A stretch of DNA of 64,000 bases, from NCBI RefSeq assembly GCF_026341035.1, contig NZ_JAPEOQ010000001.1:372001-436000 (forward strand), read 5' to 3'. Under the pieces are notes generated by a model that was given only the letters and a program-made list of their open reading frames with translations, did not search any database and was not told where the DNA came from. Both the position numbers and the translations under genes were made by a program. Below, piece by piece: positions 11,943 through 52,502 of the stretch (its first letter is position 1; each line of letters starts with the position of its first letter). Source of the DNA: Streptomyces sp. NBC_01016 (GTDB lineage Bacteria > Actinomycetota > Actinomycetes > Streptomycetales > Streptomycetaceae).

Positions 11943-12686
11943 TTAGCTGAGGTGCAGCTGCTGACCCGGGTAGATCAGGTTGGCGTCCTTGACGATGTCC
12001 TTGTTCTTCTGGAACAGCTGCTGCCAGGTCGTGTCGTGCGCCTCGGCGATCTTGCTGAGGGTGTCACCGGACTTGACCTTGTACTCGCCGTCACCCTTCT
12101 CGACCTTGTTGCCGGTCGGGGTGGTGACGGTGTCCTGCTTCGGAGCCGCCTGCTGCTTGGGGGCCTCCTGCTTCGGGGCCTCCTGCTTCGGCTGCTCGCG
12201 CTGCTCGGAGCGGTCGGCACGCTGCTGCGTGTCCTGCTGCTGCGTGCTCTGGGTGTCCTGCTTCTGGGTGTCCTGCTGCTGCGAGGACGAGTCGTCGGCG
12301 CCACCCTCGTTCGGGGTGGAGGACAGGCCGGAGCCGCAGTTCGGCCAGGCACCGTTGCCCTGGGAGGCGAGGACCTTCTCGCCGACGGCTATCTGCTGGG
12401 CCTTGGAGGCCTGGTCGGCGGAGGAGGCGTACTGGTCGCCGCCGTAGGCGGACCAGGTGGAGGACGAGAACTGGAGGCCGCCGTAGAAACCGTTGCCGGT
12501 GTTCGTGGACCAGTTGCCACCGGACTCGCACTGCGCGACCTGGTCCCACTCGGACGTGGTCGCGGCGGAGGCGGACGTCGCACCCATCAGCGGCACGGCG
12601 ACGGCGGCAGCGGCGACACCGCCGAGCGTGGCGACGCGGACGGCCTTGGACGGGCGGCGGTGCTTGTTCTTGCCGGAAAACAGCAT
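11943..12686 (-). CDS. rpfA: Resuscitation-promoting factor with LysM domain
   Basis: 247-residue secreted muralytic enzyme that cleaves peptidoglycan during spore germination. The signal peptide (residues 1-41) ends at SAS-AATT. The transglycosylase-like Rpf domain follows with the catalytic glutamate in [10 protein letters not shown] (E54) and the family runs [18 protein letters not shown] and [10 protein letters not shown] Gln/Glu/Pro/Lys-rich linker (about 125-195) leads to a C-terminal LysM peptidoglycan-binding domain, [20 protein letters not shown]. The start ATG has AGGAG eight bases upstream inside the riboswitch expression platform. The 5' leader carries a ydaO-type c-di-AMP aptamer. 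From memory, the S. coelicolor orthologue is under such control, so this gene is called rpfA rather than another Rpf. Confidence 0.93.
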
Positions 12687-12702
12687 GGAGATTTCTCCTC
12701 AC

Positions 12703-12849
12703 CGACGCCTGCGAGGTGAGCTGTCGGGTTCGGGCCAGTGAGTGCCCGGCAGACGCATCCTTGTGCGCTGCTTAACCCCAAGCCCGTCCGGTCTCCCGGA
12801 AGGGCACTTACCTGGGTCCCCCGCTCCTGCCTACGGCGCATACGCGTCG
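12703..12849 (-). ncRNA. c-di-AMP riboswitch (ydaO/yuaA type) in the rpfA leader
   Basis: Read on the minus strand, the leader contains the conserved ydaO blocks in order: GCGGGGGACCCAGG, CTTGGGGTTAAGC, and CCCGAACCCGACAGCTCACC followed by TCGCAGGC. The closing helix P1 can form between CGACGC (12844-12849) and GCGTCG (12703-12708). Immediately downstream, GGAG of the ribosome binding site can pair with CTCC just before the ATG (GGAGAAATCTCC), a possible expression platform. Binding of cyclic di-AMP to this class usually lowers expression of wall hydrolases and potassium transporters. Confidence 0.88.
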
Positions 12850-12959
12850 ACTGTTCCCGTACGGACGTTGGCAGGATTCGGCGTGACGTCCATCGGGGCC
12901 CGCTGAAGCGAGCGGTCACGAACGTAAGCGGTCGATCCGTCCGATTTCAAAGTCGATCA

Positions 12960-13028: not shown

Positions 13029-14084
13029 CTACTTTTTGTCCGATCCGTCCCCAAGATCCAGGCTCTGACCAGGAAGGATGAGGTCTGGGTCGGTACCGAC
13101 CGTCTCCTTGTTCCGCTCGTAGAGCGCATCCCATCCGCCGTGCACGTCCTGGGCCTTCGCGATGTCCCAGAGGTTGTCGCCGGCGTGCACCTTGTACGTG
13201 TCGCCGTCGCGCTTGTCGTCGCGCGAGGCGTGACGCCCCTCTCCCGTACGGGAGTCGGAGCCGCCCTCGTCGGCGCGATCGCCGCGGTGGCGGCCCGACG
13301 TGGCGTCGCCCTGCGTCTCGCCGGAGGGCGAGGCGGACGGCGTGGCCGTCTCGGAGGCGGCGTCGTCAGAAGGCGCGTGGGACTTGTCACTTGAAGAGGT
13401 CGAGGACTCCTCGGCCTTGTTACCGGAGGTATCGCCCGACTCGTCCGCCGAGGCCTTGTCCGACGCGTCGGAGCCCTCCGCCTCGTCGTGACCCTTGTCT
13501 CCCGAATCCGCCGATTCGGTCGAGTCGCCCGGATCGCTCGATTCACTCGAATCCGTCGCGTCCGTGGAGCCCGCCTTGTCGGCGTCCTCGTCGGCGCTCT
13601 TGTCGCCACCCTCGTCCGACTTACTGTCGGCATCGGTGTCGGACGAAGCGGAGGACTCGGACGGCTGCGGCGACGCGGACACGCCCGGGTCGACGTCCGC
13701 CGAGTCGTCGTCCTTGGTGAGGTCGGCGGTGAGCGAGCACATCGGCCAGGCGCTCACGCCCTTGTCGTCAAGAACCTTCTCGGCGACGGATATCTGCTGC
13801 GAGCGGCTGGCCTGGTCGGCACGCGGGGCGTAGTCGAGCCCCCCGTACTCCTCCCATCTCTCCTGCGTGAACTGGAGTCCGCCGTAGTAGCCGTTACCGG
13901 CGTCCAGGCTCCACTGCCCACCGCTCTCGCACTCGGCGAGCTTGTCCCACGCCTGCGTGGTCGCGGCGCTCGCGCCGCTCGCGGCGAACAGCGGGATCGC
14001 GATGGCGCTGCCGGCGACCCCGGCGGCGACGACGAGAGCAGGGGCCTGACGGGGGCGACGGTGACGACCGTTCCCGGAGAGCAT
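13029..14084 (-). CDS. rpfB: Second resuscitation-promoting factor with LysM domain
   Basis: 351-residue secreted Rpf paralogue. A signal peptide (residues 1-40, ending SGASA-ATT) precedes the Rpf domain with catalytic E53 in AECESGGQWS and the run GYYGGLQFTQERWEEYGG. The linker, about residues 118-290, is extremely rich in Ser, Asp, Glu and Ala and almost free of hydrophobics, likely an extended spacer through the wall. A C-terminal LysM domain (YKVHAGDNLWDIAKAQDVHGG) ends the protein. ATG at 14082-14084 with AAAGG upstream is the start. Unlike rpfA, no ydaO aptamer is visible in its leader. The symbol follows the usual Streptomyces naming from memory of gene order and is less certain than the function. 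Confidence 0.85.
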   Translation of the reverse strand: MLSGNGRHRRPRQAPALVVAAGVAGSAIAIPLFAASGASAATTQAWDKLAECESGGQWSLDAGNGYYGGLQFTQERWEEYGGLDYAPRADQASRSQQISVAEKVLDDKGVSAWPMCSLTADLTKDDDSADVDPGVSASPQPSESSASSDTDADSKSDEGGDKSADEDADKAGSTDATDSSESSDPGDSTESADSGDKGHDEAEGSDASDKASADESGDTSGNKAEESSTSSSDKSHAPSDDAASETATPSASPSGETQGDATSGRHRGDRADEGGSDSRTGEGRHASRDDKRDGDTYKVHAGDNLWDIAKAQDVHGGWDALYERNKETVGTDPDLILPGQSLDLGDGSDKK

Positions 14085-14227
14085 GCGTTTGCCTTTCGCG
14101 AGACTGATGCTGCTACGCGCGACGGGTAGTGCAAGTGGTGCGAGTTGTGCATGTGTCGCGATGATCCGTGAACGTAGCGGCACTCGAACGCCTGTCACAA
14201 GTCGATGCAGCGTAGATCACGTGAAAG

Positions 14228-52430: not shown

Positions 52431-52502
52431 TCCCCCGTGGTGTAATTGGCAGCACTGTGGCTTTTGGTGCCATCTGTCCGGGTTCAAGTCCTGGCGGGGG
52501 AG
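52431..52502 (+). tRNA. tRNA-Gln, anticodon UUG
   Basis: Acceptor stem TCCCCCG (52431-52437) pairs with CGGGGGA (52495-52501), discriminator G at 52502. The anticodon stem GTGGC/GCCAT encloses loop TTTTGGT, giving anticodon UUG, which reads CAA. The T arm has GGTTCAAGTCC. CCA is not encoded. A perfect hairpin follows, then glmU. Confidence 0.93.

Follow-up and report, generated by a model that had tools for sequence, protein, structure and literature searches.

How the c-di-AMP riboswitches of actinobacteria act on the genes that they precede is contested, the two positions being attenuation, as for rpfA of Streptomyces coelicolor, versus an effect on translation, as for nlpC of Corynebacterium glutamicum (PMC10117811 and PMC9960051, in the parts available). 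The leader of an rpfA gene in a 64,000-nucleotide stretch of the Streptomyces sp. NBC_01016 genome (hereafter the window, whose numbering is used throughout) raises the same question. This gene (11943-12686, minus strand) encodes a 247 aa protein that combines a Transglycosylas domain (PF06737) with a LysM domain (PF01476), and its transglycosylase-like Rpf domain marks it as an Rpf-type muralytic, i.e. cell-wall-cutting, enzyme. The closest relatives of the protein are from Streptomyces species, the best in a scan of named genomes being that of Streptomyces sp. KL109B with 89% identity. A second Rpf-type gene (13029-14198, minus strand; 389 aa), also with Transglycosylas and LysM domains and with no riboswitch match, is adjacent, and an enolase gene lies downstream of rpfA at 11604-10318. 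Enolase likewise adjoins the rpfA gene of S. coelicolor, which we take to be SCO3097. Elsewhere in the window Rfam recognizes a tRNA gene at 52431-52502 on the plus strand (53.3 bits).

The initial annotation had placed a c-di-AMP riboswitch before rpfA and had proposed a covariance-model search as a check. A cmscan search of the whole window returned a single RF00379 match, at 12848-12691 on the minus strand, scoring 67 bits where the gathering score is 38 (E 2.3e-13); the ATG of rpfA at 12686 is the next ATG on that strand. The assignment is thus upheld, and the rpfA riboswitch itself is already known: it is established for Streptomyces, binding of c-di-AMP has been reported for the S. coelicolor leader, and c-di-AMP represses rpfA, with five-fold more rpfA transcript in a disA mutant of S. 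venezuelae (PMC10117811, in the part available). The further claim that rpfA alone, and not the adjacent rpfB, carries the element is true within the window; the genome holds five other RF00379 matches, of which four, like that of rpfA, exceed the cut-off. The sixth match of the genome (L006, G000:C1:1953722-1953853, minus strand) scores 37.2 bits, just under the gathering score, and may be rescued by a corrected model. As expected of this family in Actinobacteria, a cell-wall gene (Transglycosylas plus LysM) stands downstream, and the closing helix P1 with its GCC-GAA motif, as well as the core helix leading to CCUCGC, are recognizable, at a corrected position described below. The short P2 hairpin of the Rfam consensus, with 3 pairs and a 6-nt loop, is absent, its place being taken by an arm of 7 pairs with a 38-nt insert; because the score, the core and P1 all conform, we regard this difference as peripheral.

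Together with an alignment of 53 rpfA leaders, the RF00379 match delimits an aptamer that runs, from the P1 5' strand to the P1 3' strand, over 12705-12884 (minus strand, as are all of its parts). The P1 5' strand ACGCC (12880-12884) is directly followed by GAA and then UCC (12879-12874), and pairs with the P1 3' strand GGCGU (12705-12709), which ends one base before the Shine-Dalgarno (SD) region; in alignment A1 columns 4-8 pair with columns 259-263 in 98.9% of cells. The P2 arm is formed by UCCUGCC (12870-12876) and GGCAGGA (12825-12831), the latter directly before GCGGGGGA, and encloses the 38-nt insert (12832-12869) with its own inner hairpin, CG.CGC / GCG.CG (12849-12844 / 12839-12834), four of whose five pairs never vary in the 53 leaders. 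The core helix pairs GCGGGG (12819-12824) with CCUCGC (12711-12716), and in 2 of the 53 leaders a CG pair is replaced by UA through changes on both sides. The GCCGAAUCC motif and the P1 5' strand, at 12884-12874, are situated about 36 nt upstream of the 5' end given by both Rfam and the initial annotation, which falls inside the inserted hairpin. The Rfam model start is aligned at 12848, four P2 hairpin positions are marked as non-standard pairs, and what Rfam takes for the P1 5' strand is CGCC at 12838-12835, on the 3' side of the inner hairpin of the insert. Judged from the aligned leaders, this 5' boundary is too short and the aptamer extends to about 12884; of the extent first annotated, the part covered by the match at 12848-12691 stands and the 5' end does not. 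The correction matters for experimental constructs: one cut at the Rfam boundary has no P1 5' strand and should not switch. By eye, GGGAAC is common in the insert (12869-12832, minus strand), with CGTA 17-18 nt further on, a combination that resembles an ECF-sigma promoter; a transcript initiated at that site would not include the P1 5' strand. Conservation is stronger in the inner hairpin of the insert than in GGGAAC.

The comparative support for this structure comes from a set of 85 distinct rpfA leaders, in which the window is represented by L004. The loci L007-L096 (90 in all) comprised 30 returned automatically and 60 picked from the matches listed; L007, L045 and L080 were dropped as duplicates, and L088 was excluded as a member of a paralogous class. 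The corrected 5' anchor is present in 83 of the 85 leaders, all from Streptomyces; 74 of these 83 were picked as diverse, and 53 of the 74 were aligned. In the 53-leader alignment the corrected fold is paired in 98.3% of cells, versus 94.0% in shuffled alignments and at most 42.8% when the structure is slid along the sequence. It contains 12 pairs with changes on both sides, a count as high as which occurs in 0 of 500 shuffles, and its covariation score of 0.144 (0.063 shuffled) is likewise matched by none of the 500. Eight of the 12 pairs belong to one arm (columns 171-215), and P1 and P2 hardly vary in this set, the P2 5' strand being invariant; these two helices were therefore judged on other leaders. 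For P2 we used 31 leaders from Streptomyces and other genera (hand-picked loci, 32 named and 31 placed) and five measures. The arm is paired in 95.2% of their cells versus 90.2% shuffled, shows exchanges of UA to CG and of CG to UA, and has a covariation score of 0.158 versus 0.079 shuffled, equalled in 0 of 500 shuffles. The weaker measures were the pairs changed on both sides, numbering 3 (32 of 500 shuffles), and the further pair types, numbering 8 (28 of 500). The outer P1 pair is AU, CG, GC or UA and is unpaired in 29 of the 198 leaders that could be placed (a further 133 lacked the anchor and 12 lacked a 3' match); since the 5' anchor was selected as the one giving the best pairing, these figures are biased in favour of the structure.

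The long arm recurs in 21 of 65 loci of the named set, including all 17 of L372-L388 with inserts of 34-39 nt. At the third pair of the core helix, 109 of 120 long-arm leaders have G-C and 10 have C-G, and 74 of 78 short-arm leaders have C-G and 4 have G-C; one core type thus accompanies the long arm in most cases. A broader proposal, which we advance tentatively and consider unlikely as a whole, is that the rpf-type actinobacterial switches whose core is GCGGGG constitute a long-P2 subclass in which Rfam misplaces the 5' half, that the insert of Streptomyces rpfA leaders, structured and strongly conserved, is a module that might respond to a second input or contact the aptamer by docking, and that the output is occlusion of the ribosome at an SD abutting P1. 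Neither the long P2 arm nor the misplacement of the Rfam boundary was found to be mentioned in a literature covered incompletely and in part, and the S. coelicolor papers may draw them.

How the aptamer might reach the gene is suggested by the position of P1. The helix consists of five pairs in rpfA leaders, and its position 6 is paired in 0 of 70, so that P1 ends one base before GGUGAGG and, in the window, 18 nt before the AUG; the same count rules out an extension of P1 into the SD. The SD region GGUGAGGAG (12695-12703, minus strand) has GGTGAG in 84 of the 85 rpfA leaders, although the rpfA class was itself defined by GGTGA, whose invariance is therefore partly built in. The median distance from GGCG to the start codon is 18 nt among 64 distinct rpfA leaders (19 nt in the window) and 23 nt (5-95% range 16-28) among 275 leaders; starts were sought up to 48 nt after P1, which truncates both figures above, and in the wider set the start codons were chosen by an SD score devised for this analysis. 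Simple consensus scans returned no candidate for an intrinsic terminator after the aptamer: the minus strand between 11850 and 13100 contains no terminator-like site, and the 72 nt that follow P1 are free of T-rich tracts in 188 of 188 Streptomyces leaders and in 109 of 114 other leaders of the class (the latter including a spurious site, L007, and one Streptomyces leader, L232). Such a tract does follow P1 in four leaders (L128, L130, L132 and L150) among the 16 that come from other classes of the phylum. The ydaO/kimA switch of Bacillus subtilis shares the aptamer family RF00379 and is also an OFF switch, but differs in having a terminator platform (PMC9960051, in the part available).

With the ribosome-binding site (RBS) directly against P1 and no terminator found, some form of translational control is plausible, the spacing and the lack of a terminator being the points that speak for it in these leaders. 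The leader comparison leaves little room for a terminator and sets the SD against P1, and two attractive models of SD pairing, discussed below, lack covariation. Given the constant spacing and the lack of a supported SD helix, we favour occlusion of the 30S subunit by ligand-closed P1, and lean, with guarded confidence, towards a c-di-AMP OFF switch of this kind in the rpfA leader; the ligand and the OFF sign are taken from the literature (PMC10117811, in the part available). At high c-di-AMP the aptamer (about 12884-12705, with its long inserted P2 arm) would close with the five-pair P1, and the closed P1, adjoining GGUGAGG, would keep the 30S subunit off the start site; at low c-di-AMP P1 would open and the ribosome could enter. 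The RF00379 score of 67 bits, the covariation of the corrected structure and the abrupt end of the five-pair P1 are consistent with this scheme, as is the translational action reported for C. glutamicum nlpC. Against it, the argument from proximity is one of spacing, and no helix that would hide the SD has covariation support.

The main rival is transcription attenuation, by which c-di-AMP would stop RNA polymerase in or just after the aptamer, with no canonical terminator, and translation would drop only through a smaller amount of mRNA. It has the closest precedent, since the S. coelicolor rpfA switch (St-Onge 2015; St-Onge and Elliot 2017, as cited in the available parts of PMC10117811 and PMC9960051) concerns the same kind of gene, riboswitch family and genus and differs in that its reported output is attenuation. 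Premature termination dependent on c-di-AMP has been reported for rpfA (PMC10117811), in S. coelicolor and with raised transcript in cells without DisA or without the riboswitch (PMC10117811, PMC9960051 and PMC13104608, in the parts available). The termination was observed in vitro with the polymerase of E. coli, on a switch that has no canonical terminator and is Rho-independent (PMC9960051, in the part available), and this, like the terminator scans of the minus strand and of the 188 Streptomyces leaders, weighs against attenuation here. We consider it possible, though rather less than probable.

Translational control through an RNA hairpin at the RBS had been suggested in the initial annotation: pairing of GGAG with CTCC across AAAT would sequester the SD, the state of the aptamer setting whether the hairpin forms. 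Control of the RBS in such leaders is an idea already in print: blocking by a stem-loop was suggested for S. coelicolor by Haiser 2009 and Block 2010 (PMC8079986), and a CTCC:GGAG pairing at the RBS has been proposed for the C. glutamicum nlpC switch, which acts on translation (PMC9960051; both sources in the parts available). The latter is likewise actinobacterial and without a canonical terminator, but it precedes another gene and its CTCC lies inside the riboswitch, whereas that of the window is between SD and AUG (PMC9960051, in the part available). The motif is present as described (GGAG 12698-12695, AAAT 12694-12691 and CTCC 12690-12687, minus strand, directly 5' of the ATG at 12686), four pairs are possible, and the spacer of the window, with an ensemble energy of -11.3 versus -7.8 in shuffles (s.d. 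1.6), is about 2.3 s.d. more stable than expected. The closest named relative, L372, has the same hairpin with another loop (GGAG-ATTT-CTCC), an AGGA-GAAA-UCCU hairpin was seen by eye before the start in one other lineage (L279, L291 and L322), and pairing of the start codon is slightly higher across the rpfA family than in shuffles (+0.095).

The family as a whole points the other way. Between GGTGA and ATG, the 85 rpfA leaders show 47 distinct stretches. CTCC stands at the end in 23 leaders and GGAG is present in 29; 9 leaders combine the two, and 1 has the exact hairpin. The closest DNA relative, L008, carries GGGGATCTCTCC in its place, as does L009, both having been missed by the rpfA pattern. 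In the 53-leader alignment the hairpin columns are paired in 80.6% of cells versus 81.1% shuffled and show no covariation. GGAGN(3-8)CTCC occurs 18 times in the window versus 17.7 expected, with at least 18 occurrences in 55 of 100 shuffles. Against a background of 540 SD-plus-start sites from the fetched DNA, which may still include riboswitch leaders, 37% of sites fold locally at least as well as that of the window and the 47 rpfA stretches are no different (p = 0.69). After exclusion of six leaders whose starts were doubtful (L007, L129, L145, L294, L304 and L342), structure in the 46 distinct rpfA spacers does not exceed that of their shuffles (mean z 0.08, p 0.33). An earlier weak tendency, in which 66% of rpfA fragments fell below the mean of the shuffles, did not recur with a 3-nt-longer fragment and ensemble energy. 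No connection between the hairpin and P1 was found. Conservation, covariation and chance frequency thus rule out GGAG-AAAU-CUCC (12687-12698) as a platform of the family, and a conserved or covarying SD-sequestering helix is not supported as a general mechanism in these alignments; we take the hairpin to be peculiar to a few strains, and control of rpfA translation through it to be quite improbable.

A second model invokes strand exchange, in which CUCACC of the ligand-free aptamer would pair with GGUGAG of the SD region, aptamer and SD helix being mutually exclusive. RNAalifold predicts this helix, and 99.3% of its cells pair in the 53 leaders, yet no pair is changed on both sides and there is therefore no covariation. 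The wider set, where changes are visible at only some of the six pairs, has CTCACC/GGTGAG in 101 leaders, CTCACC/GGAGAG in 33, CTGACC/GGTGAG in 4, CTGACC/GGAGAG in 3 and other combinations in 4; the 33 and the 4 with a change on one side are uncompensated, and the CUCACC:GGUGAG helix was rejected on that ground. As the model would also predict an ON switch, opposite to the reported sign, we regard strand exchange as very improbable and retain occlusion by closed P1.

The rpfA codons CACCGCCGCC (12665-12651, minus strand) could pair with the P1 3' strand plus CGGUG. The resulting long helix, GGCG.CGGUG with the codons CACCG.C.CGCC, has a good energy but was rejected: the codons encode the conserved motif KHRRP, and their conservation therefore cannot be assigned to the RNA. 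By eye, a G(K/R)HR(R/K)P motif stands at the start of several riboswitch-controlled genes, in the rpfA, A5 and A2 classes.

Other leaders show pairings of their own near the start. In paralogous leaders of the A3 class (L003, L179-L201) and the A1 class (L001, L097-L125), CGCC is common upstream of a GUG or UUG start codon that has GCG after it; its possible pairing partners are the start region and, alternatively, the P1 3' strand GGCG. Shuffle tests of the resulting start-codon hairpins, CGCC..(G/U)UGGCG, gave p = 0.067 for A3 and nothing in the other Streptomyces classes, and one compensatory case is known, UGCC with GGCA in L194; we treat these hairpins as a lead that has no firm support. 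Leaders outside the Streptomyces classes have slightly less structure than their shuffles (mean z +0.16, p = 0.0498). By eye, L126, L128 and L129, from other classes of the phylum, combine GGGGUG with a distant CACCCC, and L279, L291, L322, L329, L369 and L318, of one other lineage, have an AGGA-GNRA-UCCU or GGGA/UCCC hairpin that holds the SD just before a putative CUG start.
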